From assembly GCA_030525985.1 (NCBI GenBank), contig JAUNDR010000009.1:1-49445 (forward strand): a stretch of DNA of 49,445 nt, given 5' to 3'. The notes beneath the pieces were generated by a model. It was not told the DNA's origin and did no database searches. It was given only the letters and a program-made list of their open reading frames with translations. Position numbers and translations under genes: made by a program. Positions 26,244 to 31,449 of the stretch are shown here, in pieces. Source of the DNA: Slackia sp. (GTDB lineage: Bacteria; Actinomycetota; Coriobacteriia; Coriobacteriales; Eggerthellaceae). How positions within the stretch are numbered: the stretch's first letter is position 1; each line of letters begins with the position of its first letter.

Positions 26244-27599
26244 CTATCCTTCATCGCGCAGAAGCCACTTCCAAGCCGGGATTTGGTCAATCCGCATGCC
26301 ATTTTGCTCATACGTGGCAGAATCGCCGCGGCCGACGATGAGAACGGATCGATCGAGCCCGTGCTCCTCCATGGCCTCCCATAGCGCCCGTAGCTCGCGC
26401 TCGCGCGTGCGCTCGTCCTCCACCGATACGCTTACTTGATAAAGCTCGTACGCCTCGGACGAAATGGCATCGCCTCGAACAAAGTCGATTTCATAACCAT
26501 GGGTCCGTGTGCGCATCGACGATATTTCGTCGCGTCGAAAGCCGACCGAGCGTCTTCTCAGCTCCAGATACACCGCATTTTCCAACCGCTGTCCTTCGTC
26601 GTTGACGCTCGCCCTGCTGTTGGCAAGGGCAAGTCCCGGATCAATGGCGTAAACTTTCGGGGGAGCCGTGCTCGATTCCGAGAGGGAGCGCGATAATTCC
26701 CTTACTTGAAATACAAGATACGCCTGCTCGAAATACGAAAGCAGGTCTCCCAGCAGCTCCCGGCTGGTGGATAAACCCGCAGAGCGGAAATCGTTTTCGA
26801 TTTTACGCACCGAAACGGTTCGCGCATTGGATTCCAAAATGCGCCTTGATAGCGCTGAAACAACCCGCGCGCGCCGAACATCGTGACGCTCGATCACGTC
26901 GCGCGCCACCACGCGCTGAACGTACGACTGCAACAGCAGCACCGATTGCGGGAACGGCAGCGCTTGAACCGAAGGGAACCCTCCCCTTTCGAGATACGAA
27001 GCGAACGCCCGCTCGAGACGAACCGAATCCTCAAGCGAGAAAAAACCCGTCTCATCGGGTAATTCGCGATACTCCCCAAAACGCAGCGATTCCCGAAACG
27101 AACAGGGCAGCAGTTCGAAATCAATCGCCCTGCCGCGAAATTCCGTACTTATTTCCGAAGAAAGCATCTGGGAAGACGACCCGCTCACGTAAATCGTTGC
27201 TTTTTTCGTATCCACGATTCTGCGCAGCCATGCACCCCAAGCATCCATCTCCTGCAGCTCATCGAAGAAGAAATACGCCCCCTCCTCGATTGCCTCGGGA
27301 TGCATCGAATAAAAGGCATGCATCACCTCGTCGCCCGTTACAGACGTCACGGGATAGAGACGGTCGTCCTCGAAATTGAAATAGCATATGCGCGACCACG
27401 GAACACCTGATTTGTGAACCGCGTCCATCTCCTGGAACAATCGATAGCTTTTACCGCTACGACGCATGCCCACAATAACCTTGACCAAGTTGCCGGCCCG
27501 AGGAGACAAAACATCGCCCAAATCCAAATCACGCGCAATGATCGGACGGTAATCGTCGAGGGAAAAATCTCGTAATGTTTGGGCGATTATCTCGTTCAT
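26244..27599 (-). CDS. AAA ATPase with DUF4143 domain (copy 1)
   Basis: A 451-residue protein. Walker A is KVIVGMRRSGKSY (about 39-51), Walker B AYFFFDELQEMDAWGAWLRR. The arginine-finger region YVSGSSSQMLSSEISTEFRG and the family motif FELLPCSFRESL follow. The C-terminal DUF4143 part (about 260-451) resembles the winged-helix/nuclease-like end of the family (VYAIDPGLALANSR, then YEIDFVRGD). The biochemical role of this large family is unknown. AGGAG precedes the ATG. Two tandem palindromes (27617-27676) stand directly upstream. The related copy at 29735-30940 has only moderate identity, so this is not a recent duplication. Confidence 0.88.
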   Translation of the reverse strand: MNEIIAQTLRDFSLDDYRPIIARDLDLGDVLSPRAGNLVKVIVGMRRSGKSYRLFQEMDAVHKSGVPWSRICYFNFEDDRLYPVTSVTGDEVMHAFYSMHPEAIEEGAYFFFDELQEMDAWGAWLRRIVDTKKATIYVSGSSSQMLSSEISTEFRGRAIDFELLPCSFRESLRFGEYRELPDETGFFSLEDSVRLERAFASYLERGGFPSVQALPFPQSVLLLQSYVQRVVARDVIERHDVRRARVVSALSRRILESNARTVSVRKIENDFRSAGLSTSRELLGDLLSYFEQAYLVFQVRELSRSLSESSTAPPKVYAIDPGLALANSRASVNDEGQRLENAVYLELRRRSVGFRRDEISSMRTRTHGYEIDFVRGDAISSEAYELYQVSVSVEDERTRERELRALWEAMEEHGLDRSVLIVGRGDSATYEQNGMRIDQIPAWKWLLRDEG

Positions 27600-27616
27600 T
27601 TTTGACTCCTAGAGAA

Positions 27617-27676
27617 AACTGGCAGTTTTACTTTGCCAATTTTATCGTAACTGGCAGTTTCGCTTTGCCAGTTACG
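27617..27676. repeat. Tandem palindrome pair before DUF4143 ATPase copy 1
   Basis: Unit 1 has AACTGGCA (27617-27624) and TGCCAATT (27634-27641). Unit 2 has CGTAACTGGCA (27646-27656) and TGCCAGTTACG (27666-27676), 11-bp arms. Both have a 9-base centre (GTTTTACTT, GTTTCGCTT). Centres are 32 bp apart. The array lies between promoter and ribosome site of the ATPase gene. Confidence 0.85.
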
Positions 27677-28854: not shown

Positions 28855-28914
28855 GGAATGTCACATCATCGGCAACAACCGACATTCATGATTTCAAAAC
28901 ACAAGGAGGTTCGC

Positions 28915-29346
28915 ATGAAAGCAAGAGCCCTTATTACGACAATCGCAGCCGTCGCACTTGGAGCGTCTCTGGTCGGATGCTCCAGCGGAACCATAAAGGC
29001 GGAAGACGACGATTCCTATTCGTCCAGCAGCTACAGCAGCACCGAGTCCAGCACATCCAGCTCCTCGGATTCCGACAAATCTTCTACGTCGAGCTCCAAA
29101 TCGAATTCCGATGACGACGATTATGAGACGTACAGCTACAGCTCGGGCGGAAAGAGCTATGAAACGACCAAATCGGACGACGGATCCTCGCTTACCCGCG
29201 GCTCCGACGGCTATACCCAGTACAAGCACAAGGACGGCACGAGCATGGCCACCGATGGAAAAGGCAACTTCATTTCCGATACCGACGGAAACGGGAGCCC
29301 CGATTCTTATTCCACCGACGGCGGATCCACATGGGACGAACTGTAG
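28915..29346 (+). CDS. Serine/aspartate-rich small lipoprotein
   Basis: A 143-residue protein. Signal peptide MKARALITTIAAVALGASL with lipobox VGC. The mature N-terminal half is a run of Ser, Asp, Tyr and Thr (SYSSSSYSSTESSTSSSSDS), likely a flexible stalk. The C-terminal half has YKHKDGTSMATDGKGNFISD and an acidic DTDGNGSPDS loop similar to calcium-binding motifs. No family recognised. AAGGAGG precedes the ATG; the frame is open 19 codons further. It is 60 bases downstream of the previous lipoprotein. Confidence 0.68.
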   Translation: MKARALITTIAAVALGASLVGCSSGTIKAEDDDSYSSSSYSSTESSTSSSSDSDKSSTSSSKSNSDDDDYETYSYSSGGKSYETTKSDDGSSLTRGSDGYTQYKHKDGTSMATDGKGNFISDTDGNGSPDSYSTDGGSTWDEL

Positions 29347-29359
29347 AAAGGACGGTCGC

Positions 29360-29527
29360 ATGAGCAAAACAATCGCAATCGCAATTTCCGTCATATTCTG
29401 CATCTGCATGCTATCCGCATGCTCGAGCAGCAGCGACGAAAGCAGCAGCCCCTCTCCGAAAACTGCCGAGGAGGCGGCAAGCCACTATTACTACGATTCC
29501 GACGGCCATATCCATAGGGATTACTGA
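29360..29527 (+). CDS. Very small lipoprotein
   Basis: A 55-residue protein: MSKTIAIAISVIFCICMLSA then Cys at the lipobox, a Ser-rich stretch, and the ending YYYDSDGHIHRDY. AAAGGA lies eight bases upstream of the ATG, 13 bases after the previous stop, and a terminator follows the stop codon. The same Tyr/Asp/Gly flavour as the previous gene suggests a related function. No family recognised. Confidence 0.62.
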   Translation: MSKTIAIAISVIFCICMLSACSSSSDESSSPSPKTAEEAASHYYYDSDGHIHRDY

Positions 29528-29535
29528 TTCCTCGC

Positions 29536-29566
29536 AAGCGCAACCCCTCGCGGTTGCGCTTTTTTA
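29536..29566 (+). terminator. Intrinsic terminator of the lipoprotein cluster
   Basis: AAGCGCAACC pairs with GGTTGCGCTT and is followed by TTTT. Confidence 0.9.
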
Positions 29567-29617: not shown

Positions 29618-29724
29618 AAAAGTTTCGACCGTAATCGAAACTTTTGCCATTTTCGTCCATAGTTTCGATTACAGTCGAAACTATTTGAGATACGGCCTAT
29701 AGTTTCGACTGTAATCGAAACTAT
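29618..29724. repeat. Three tandem palindromes at exact 40-bp pitch before DUF4143 ATPase copy 2
   Basis: Unit C (29618-29645), unit A (29659-29684) and unit B (29699-29724) all have arms AGTTTCGA and TCGAAACT around a 6-base centre. In A and B the arms extend to 10 bp (ATAGTTTCGA / TCGAAACTAT). The centre is TTACAG in A and CTGTAA in B, so A and B are exact reverse complements; C has CCGTAA. Dyad centres lie at 29631.5, 29671.5 and 29711.5. Unit B ends where the AGGAGG ribosome site of the ATPase gene begins. Confidence 0.92.
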
Positions 29725-29734
29725 AGGAGGCAGC

Positions 29735-30940
29735 ATGATAGACCGTCCTTCATATCTCAACAAAATACGTCCCTTCATGGGAAAAAACATCATCAAGGTG
29801 CTCGTGGGCGTGCGCCGCTGCGGAAAATCCACGTTGCTCTCACTCGTTCGGAACGAAATCATCGCTCATGGCGCAAGCGAAAGCGATGTGACCTATCTCA
29901 ACTTCGAATCGGCTCAAACGGCGAATATCCGCACTCAGGAAGAGCTCTTGGAATATATGGAAAAGCGCATCGACCGCTCGATGAAGCACTACGCGTTTTT
30001 TGACGAAATCCAGCAAGTAACCGGCTGGGAAAAAGCACTCGCCTCTCTTATGGTGGACTACGACATCGACCTATATGTCACGGGCTCGAACGCCCATATG
30101 CTTTCGAGCGACCTTGCCACCTATATAACAGGACGATACGTCCAAATACCCGTCTTCCCGTTTTCATTCACGGAGTTCTTCGACGCGTATTCCTCAACCC
30201 ATCCCGATGCGAACTCGAGAATCGCATTCGAACGCTATCTCATCCAAGGCGGATTCCCCTTCCAAACAGAATTGGATTTCGAAGAAGCACCGTCGCTGCA
30301 ATATCTCGAAGATGTCTATTCGACGATTCTGTTCAAAGACCTCGTAAAACGCAACGACATCCGAAACGCCGAACAACTTGAGCTGCTCGTTCGTTATGCG
30401 CTTCAAGAGATAGGGCATCCGTTTTCCGCCAAAAGCATCGCCGACTACTTGAAAAGCGAACGGCGTTCCGTCTCGGTCGACACCATCTACGGATACCTCA
30501 ATGCGGCGGAAAAGGCATGCCTGCTCCATCGCGTCTCCAGGGAAGACGCCGTTGGAAAACGCGCCCTGAAATTCAATGAGAAGTTTTATGCCGTCGATCA
30601 CGGACTACGCGAGGCAATCGGCTACAACAATTCTTCTTCCATCGACCAGGTGCTCGAAAACATCGTGTATATTGAGCTGCTTCGCTGCGGATACGATGTG
30701 AGAATCGGAAAGGTCGGCGACAAGGAAATCGATTTCATCGCCCGCAAACGCAACGATACGCAGTATTTCCAAGTTTGCTACCTACTCGCAAGCGAAAAGA
30801 CAATCGAACGTGAATTCTCGTCGCTCGAAGCGGTCAGCGACAACTATCCGAAGCACGTGCTTTCGCTTGACGAATTCCCTCGCGAAAGAAATGGTGTCAA
30901 AAGCATGAACCTGATCGATTGGCTTTTGGAAACGAAATAG
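29735..30940 (+). CDS. AAA ATPase with DUF4143 domain (copy 2)
   Basis: A 401-residue protein. Walker A is VLVGVRRCGKSTL (about 24-36), Walker B HYAFFDEIQQVTGWEKALAS. The region DLYVTGSNAHMLSSDLATYI and the family motif IPVFPFSFTEFFDAY follow. The DUF4143 part begins near 190 (LKDLVKRNDIRNAEQLELLV has the usual KDLVKRN) and ends with NIVYIELLRCGYDVRIGKVG, then KEIDFIARK and YFQVCYLL, resembling a restriction-endonuclease-like fold with E, D and K positions. Function of the family is unknown. AGGAGG precedes the ATG. Same architecture as 26244-27599 but a different upstream palindrome sequence. Confidence 0.9.
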   Translation: MIDRPSYLNKIRPFMGKNIIKVLVGVRRCGKSTLLSLVRNEIIAHGASESDVTYLNFESAQTANIRTQEELLEYMEKRIDRSMKHYAFFDEIQQVTGWEKALASLMVDYDIDLYVTGSNAHMLSSDLATYITGRYVQIPVFPFSFTEFFDAYSSTHPDANSRIAFERYLIQGGFPFQTELDFEEAPSLQYLEDVYSTILFKDLVKRNDIRNAEQLELLVRYALQEIGHPFSAKSIADYLKSERRSVSVDTIYGYLNAAEKACLLHRVSREDAVGKRALKFNEKFYAVDHGLREAIGYNNSSSIDQVLENIVYIELLRCGYDVRIGKVGDKEIDFIARKRNDTQYFQVCYLLASEKTIEREFSSLEAVSDNYPKHVLSLDEFPRERNGVKSMNLIDWLLETK

Positions 30941-31119: not shown

Positions 31120-31449
31120 CTACACGTATGCCGCGATGGCCTCTTCCACGATAGCGTTTTGGCTCTTCCCCTCTCGCGCCGCCTTCAGCACGAGACGCCT
31201 GTGCAGATCGCTCGGAATGCGCGTATTGAACCGTCCGCTGCAGGGCCTCTGAGGTTCGCGACCCTCCGCCCTGCATGCCTCGATATGGAAATCGACCGCC
31301 TCTTGAAAAGCGACCACAATACCGCGACCGTCCGCATCATCGAAGGAAATACACGCATCGATATCCTCGATACGCCCGTAATTGCATCCATCTTCCGCAC
31401 TGTAGTGAATATGGGTGTAATAGCCTTTGTATTCAAGGAAATTGCTCAT
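31120..31449 (-). CDS. hicB: HicB-family antitoxin, apparently without functional toxin
   Basis: A 109-residue protein. The N-terminal HicB fold is YKGYYTHIHYSAEDGCNYGR, then FDDADGRGIVVAFQEAVDF. The C-terminal ribbon-helix-helix DNA-binding part is GRFNTRIPSDLHRRLVLKAA, then SQNAIVEEAIAAYV. HicB normally neutralises the mRNA interferase HicA and represses the operon. TTAGGAGGG precedes the ATG. Only an 18-codon hicA remnant lies upstream, so HicB may now act as an orphan regulator or as protection against related toxins. Confidence 0.82.
   Translation of the reverse strand: MSNFLEYKGYYTHIHYSAEDGCNYGRIEDIDACISFDDADGRGIVVAFQEAVDFHIEACRAEGREPQRPCSGRFNTRIPSDLHRRLVLKAAREGKSQNAIVEEAIAAYV

Follow-up and report, generated by a model that had tools for sequence, protein, structure and literature searches.

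AAA_14/DUF4143 proteins (COG1373) are listed by PADLOC as PDC-S01, a single-gene phage-defence candidate, and experimental validation is stated to be pending for most PDCs. PDC-S01 reportedly ranks fourth in frequency among the defence systems of prokaryotes (PMC12988326). The ATPase family, found in bacteria and archaea, is suspected to act against phages. The open literature searched, which takes in few subscription journals, yielded no description of palindrome arrays or of a regulatory element for DUF4143/PDC-S01, and no mechanism for PDC-S01 was found there, the passages on it giving abundance or annotation. An earlier sequence-only reading of the DNA analysed here had named no described role for DUF4143 ATPases; to this has to be added the listing of PDC-S01 as a phage-defence candidate. 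Self-regulation via promoter palindromes is an already known kind of control, whereas such arrays at DUF4143/PDC-S01 genes are apparently new.

Methyltransferases of SsoII/EcoRII-type restriction-modification systems repress their own promoter with their own helix-turn-helix. They differ in fold and enzyme type from the ATPase of this study and feature single operators, not arrays of fixed pitch. The nearest relatives in logic are the initiator/origin-box pairs of Haloarcula and the repressor RptR. Each Haloarcula origin requires the cdc6 gene that is co-located with it, and the origin recognition boxes (ORB elements) differ between origins (PMC3936714). Orc1/Cdc6 proteins share with the ATPase of this study an AAA+ domain, a winged helix and, judged from a structural model, a similar fold. 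Unlike Orc1/Cdc6, however, the ATPase family has a DUF4143 nuclease-like domain and many copies per genome, and unlike the origin recognition boxes, the array described below consists of palindromes that overlap a predicted promoter, have a fixed pitch and give no sign of an origin. RptR represses a phage-defence island whose operon has a −10 box overlapped by the palindromes of three repeats (PMC12255303). It is a separate small regulator with 6-bp palindromes, whereas in the present case the effector ATPase seems to be the regulator, with operators of 22–26 bp and a private code.

The stretch analysed (the window) comprises 49,445 nucleotides of a Slackia sp. genome and features two genes whose products have the domain pair of PDC-S01 and match its models. 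One of them (29735–30940, plus strand) codes for an ATPase of 401 aa and is preceded by a palindrome array. By pattern search, exact palindromes of the form AGTTTCGA-N6-TCGAAACT were found at 29621–29642, 29661–29682 and 29701–29722. Their centres at 29631.5, 29671.5 and 29711.5 are separated by 40 and 40 bp, which confirms the exact pitch given in the sequence-only reading. Unit 2 (ATAGTTTCGATTACAGTCGAAACTAT, 29659–29684) and unit 3 (ATAGTTTCGACTGTAATCGAAACTAT, 29699–29724) are 100% reverse complements of each other over 26 bp, as claimed for the units called A and B in the sequence-only reading, while the most upstream unit 1 (AAAGTTTCGACCGTAATCGAAACTTT, 29619–29644) agrees less well outside its arms; no strand is assigned to the units. 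When up to three mismatches were allowed, four matches were obtained in the 49-kb window compared to a shuffle mean of 0.23, and none of the shuffles gave four. A search of the whole 1.93-Mb genome with the exact 14-base pattern returned the three array sites only.

The extended palindrome of unit 3 (29696–29727) overlaps the start of the Shine-Dalgarno sequence AGGAGG, read from the sequence at 29725–29730 (plus strand). A candidate −10 hexamer, TGTAAT (29710–29715, plus strand), matches TATAAT in five of six positions and is located at the centre of unit 3. A consensus scan predicted an alternative promoter on the plus strand (TCGAAA at 29675–29680 and TATAGT at 29698–29703), whose elements likewise lie within units 2 and 3 or directly next to them. 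An intrinsic terminator of the preceding gene is predicted at 29536–29561 (plus strand), so that the array and the ATPase gene look like a separate transcription unit.

The same three-unit arrangement with 40-bp pitch is present at a same-genus ortholog (88% identical) in a Slackia MAG. The DNA block conserved between the two (80% identity) extends from the first palindrome at 29618 to 30931 and ends near the stop codon (30938–30940), and the adjoining flanks do not align. Relocation of array and gene in the MAG was considered and dropped, as synteny shows that the locus is unchanged apart from an indel of 3.6 kb on its upstream side. This 3.6-kb segment, missing from the MAG, includes two small genes for serine-rich, lipoprotein-like products without a Pfam match (28858–29527, plus strand), which precede the array. 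A HicB-like gene (31120–31449 in the window) then follows the ATPase region in both genomes, and a gene resembling the HepT/MntA type by eye is present downstream of the MAG ortholog (L005, 2050–2400, minus strand). In the same-genus genome G001, a lone perfect AAGTTTCGATTCAAATCGAAACTT palindrome was observed between two genes (L013, position 1501), with no adjacent array, and is possibly a remnant site or due to chance. The same two-unit array was absent from the 2.9 million viral contigs searched, i.e. no phage decoy with this exact sequence was present among them.

The AAA_14 domain of the 401-aa ATPase passes the cut-off of PF13173 (E 4.3e-33), and its C-terminal DUF4143 domain scores 51.7 bits against PF13635 (cut-off 28.1). 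The PADLOC model PDLC04787 (PDC-S01) matches the protein over its full length (E 1.9e-153). Comparison of homologues revealed R27, R28, G30 and K31 as well as D90 and E91 as invariant residues of the Walker motifs. In the DUF4143 domain, E308, E331-x-D333 and Q346 are invariant or near-invariant, and we take them to be a putative PD-(D/E)XK-type active site. An AlphaFold2 model calculated from 43 homologues (pLDDT 90.6, pTM 0.90) predicts a winged helix-turn-helix at about residues 208–287, with residues 248–260 as recognition helix and D249 as its second residue.

In fold, the AAA and winged-helix part of the model most resembles the archaeal STAND-like ATPases 2qen and 2fna, its best structural matches (VIA Z of about 18 over 265 residues), as well as NLR/CED-4 and Orc1/Cdc6 (2qby_B, Orc1: Foldseek E 4e-8, VIA Z 13.8 over residues 1–197). 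The similarity to 2qen/2fna concerns the AAA and winged-helix part, and the alignment spans only residues 1–297, thus leaving the DUF4143 domain uncovered. To our knowledge, no operator is known for these archaeal ATPases. The fold resembles 2qen, NLR and CED-4, and no repeat sensor was seen. At E <0.05, the PDB contained no sequence homologue of the ATPase.

For a survey of the family, homologues were collected from the taxonomic family of the window, from other genomes and phyla, from plasmid and phage records and from viral contigs. Filtering out proteins with 75% identity or more left 207 homologues with enough upstream DNA, which stem from archaea and several bacterial phyla. As controls, 144 intergenic promoters were taken from 20 stretches. 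The array score was built from two dyads together with the direct repeat they form, the pitch being free between 18 and 65 bp over 170 bp and the weights arbitrary. Such an inspection of DUF4143 upstream regions for tandem palindromes and their pitch had been proposed in the sequence-only reading, and it yielded a best pitch of 39–42 bp for 104 of the 207 homologues compared to 10 of the 144 controls (Fisher P 2e-19). Among arrays not reached by any of 50 dinucleotide shuffles, 72 of 92 had a pitch of 39–42 bp (controls: 2 of 12). A simpler direct-repeat scan of an earlier set of 128 homologues gave 72 positives, compared to 7 of 144 for the controls. The held-out set consisted of 78 further homologues, each less than 70% identical to the others and to any member of the first set. 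A pitch of 39–42 bp was seen for 39 of these, and 28 of the 31 significant arrays fell at 39–41 bp.

Most arrays consist of two or three units. Separate subfamilies have a pitch of 32–33 bp and 23 bp, and the three classes (40, 32 and 23 bp) cluster on the protein tree, with 44 Fitch changes compared to a shuffled mean of 74. In about half of the sampled homologues no array was detectable. The sequence-only reading had regarded homologues lacking arrays as counter-evidence; indeed, no array was detectable in one well-supported clade (about 36 homologues) or in some neighbouring ones, but large subfamilies have one, and the claim is thus valid for these subfamilies and not for every DUF4143 gene. 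The idea of helical phasing holds only approximately, since 40 bp correspond to 3.8 turns of relaxed B-DNA (10.5 bp per turn) and not to four. Across the family the pitch is fixed at 39–41 bp and shows no preference for multiples of 10.5 bp, indicating that protein–protein geometry is a likelier constraint than helical phasing alone.

In the survey, up to 18 matches were found in one genome. Some homologues are plasmid-borne, and their neighbours differ among several named plasmids. A DUF4143 homologue, mostly of about 35% identity, was present in 173 Acinetobacter plasmid records, and the Acinetobacter plasmid examined, A. baumannii pAb-C102_1, has a 40-bp palindrome pair. On pACLO of Arcobacter cloacae, the homologue is located between cas3 and cas4, with no clear 40-bp array.

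The palindromes themselves vary between homologues, e.g. TTTCTCGATTACAATCGAGAAA in L023 and AATCTCTATTGCAATAGAGATT in L074, and paralogues of one genome differ in their palindromes while the 40-bp pitch is kept. Similarity between sites was high only above about 60% protein identity, below which the sites are private. Stacking of 116 even-centred units revealed a shared skeleton of roughly TTT-N2-A-T-TATA-A-T-N2-AAA with T-rich/A-rich outer arms, a TATA core and variability at positions 5, 6 and 3. Hexamers resembling TATAAT are most frequent exactly at the centre of the gene-proximal unit (34 at one offset in 108 arrays), which is the place of TGTAAT in the window. A sense bias of the hexamer was observed for the gene-proximal unit only (36 vs 19, P=0.03), the upstream units giving 29 vs 32. 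In the family arrays, the centre of the gene-proximal unit lies at a median of 36 bp 5' of the start codon. These patterns fit an operator constructed over the −10 box.

In 66 arrays, all variable protein residues were scored for coupling with all half-site positions, and the two top residue–base couplings both involved residue 249, with the adjacent positions 5 and 6. In this training set, D249 often occurs with CG, K with CC, H/R with GC, N with GA and P with TA. The maximum z of 5.9 was below the permutation 95% point of 6.8 and failed family-wise correction, so that a held-out test was made, on which the significance rests. With a mapping fixed before testing (D/E–CG, N–GA, K–CC, H/R–GC, P–TA), the 18 predictable held-out arrays gave 7 exact hits compared to 3.1 expected (P=0.0005, permutation without phylogeny), in a second look at the held-out genes that contains the first, smaller round. 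That first round (28 homologues, <65% identity) had given 4 exact hits for 7 predictable significant even-centred arrays. With a majority rule learned on the training set, residue 249 ranked first of 401 on held-out data (10 hits vs 3.9 expected), a ranking in which the rule stems from training counts instead of the written mapping and the columns share one phylogeny.

For proteins with glutamate at position 249, CG was seen in no more than 5 of 19 arrays of the training set and 2 of 10 of the held-out set, and TG and other bases also occurred; other residues must therefore contribute, and the code is partial. In Mantel tests at the level of domains (winged helix −0.090, nuclease −0.086, AAA −0.048), correlation with the similarity of sites was weak and did not single out the winged helix as the seat of specificity. 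A scan with sliding windows had part of its peak outside the winged helix, at residues 16–35, and the informative signal was confined to per-residue coupling. Based on the predicted winged helix-turn-helix and the statistics for residue 249, the ATPase appears to carry a DNA-reading domain that specifies its operator, which suggests that it is the ATPase that binds the array.

Taken together, we consider it probable, at roughly three in four, that the array serves as operator of the ATPase gene, with the ATPase binding to it in cooperative autorepression. The suggestion of the sequence-only reading that an oligomer, possibly the ATPase, binds the array and has an autoregulatory function is favoured by the recurring arrays, the conserved pitch, the private sequences and the residue-249 prediction; for a DNA-marking function, also suggested, no evidence was found. 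In the proposed mechanism, a pair of protomers would read each 22–26 bp palindrome, with one winged helix per half-site, and dimers on adjacent palindromes would touch via their AAA+ domains at the fixed 40-bp pitch, with cooperative occupancy by two or three dimers. With the likely promoter covered by the units, binding would shut off the gene and keep a potentially dangerous ATPase-nuclease at a low, self-set level. A trigger, such as the ATP/ADP state, a phage product or damaged DNA, might then weaken the oligomer, ending repression and releasing the nuclease. We infer physical binding, the direction of regulation, cooperativity, trigger and role from sequence data, and the array-bound ATPase may have an activator role.

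A wider reading, which we put forward tentatively, is that much of the family is self-addressed, with private, evolving winged-helix/operator codes. On its own promoter, an AAA+ oligomer of set geometry may be an immune-type nuclease at rest and ready to sense, and the oligomer architecture of each subfamily may be reflected in its pitch (about 40, 32 or 23 bp). Private codes may also explain how many related nuclease-ATPases (up to 18 matches per genome) occur in a genome without regulatory crosstalk. The conserved array close to the gene and its partly readable code offer an experimental handle on PDC-S01, in that they predict a ligand (the DNA of the own array), specificity residues and an oligomer spacing.

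Rather doubtful, albeit still worth weighing, is a role of the array as an assembly and sensing platform more than as an operator. The ATPase-nuclease oligomer would be kept in store at the promoter of its own gene until an attacking phage disturbs this DNA and thereby frees or activates the oligomer, so that derepression and activation of the nuclease would be coupled. Such a role would be consistent with the modelled resemblance of the AAA and winged-helix part to STAND-like ATPases, NLR/CED-4 and Orc1/Cdc6, with the near-invariant Walker motifs and PD-(D/E)XK-like residues, with a pitch that is rigid at 39–41 bp and not helically periodic, and with the PADLOC listing of the family as a defence candidate. 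However, most arrays have just two or three units, and the same sequence facts are covered by simple autorepression.

Autorepression by the ATPase also has to be weighed against binding of an unlinked transcription factor for which the ATPase gene is merely the target. Promoter-overlapping palindromes are typical of any dimeric repressor, and binding by the ATPase is deduced from sequence. We nevertheless regard this explanation as improbable: the palindromes of paralogues differ while the 40-bp pitch is constant, so that a separate regulator would be needed for each paralogue. No further exact site exists in the 1.93-Mb genome, the operator bases track the recognition helix of the ATPase out of sample, and no regulator gene is constantly linked, the neighbours being different in several named plasmids.

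Very unlikely is a replication or partition element (iteron/ORB-like) of an integrated replicon whose initiator would be the ATPase. Orc1/Cdc6 proteins (AAA+ with winged helix-turn-helix) are among the top fold matches, the Haloarcula origins depend on co-located cdc6 genes while their ORB elements vary (PMC3936714), and some homologues are found on plasmids, but up to 18 matches per genome, the location of the operators over the promoter of their own gene and the fact that no replicon genes were recognised beside the array within the window argue against it. Equally remote is an RNA function of the palindromes as mRNA-leader hairpins (attenuator or leader structure), rejected as main explanation on Rfam, folding and ortholog orientation: the folding energy of the plus strand (−58.7 kcal/mol compared to −26 kcal/mol for shuffles, z −8.9) is expected of any palindrome array, whereas it is not obvious what a constant pitch of 40 bp would mean for an RNA, units 2 and 3 are no longer exact reverse complements in the 88%-identical ortholog (both centres TTACAG), the upstream units are located past the likely promoter and Rfam gives only sub-threshold eukaryotic miRNA and sRNA models.

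The second DUF4143 gene of the window (26244–27599, minus strand) codes for a divergent AAA_14/DUF4143 ATPase of 451 aa, which matches the PDC-S01 model with an E value of 4.1e-92 and belongs to the subfamily with a pitch of 32–33 bp. Its palindrome pair, given in minus-strand reading and without an assigned strand, is composed of a distal unit (AACTGGCAAAGCGAAACTGCCAGTT, 27649–27673) and a proximal unit (AATTGGCAAAGTAAAACTGCCAGTT, 27617–27641). The pitch is 32 bp and the sequence is unrelated to the 40-bp array. This locus (26244–27673, minus strand) has a pair of the AACTGGCA-N9-TGCCAGTT type, and the 32-bp subfamily takes in members from Bacteroidota and archaea. Shorter units, e.g. TTGTTCATTAGTAATGAA, with a pitch of 23 bp were observed in a Bacteroidota subfamily (L163, L164, L165 and L168).
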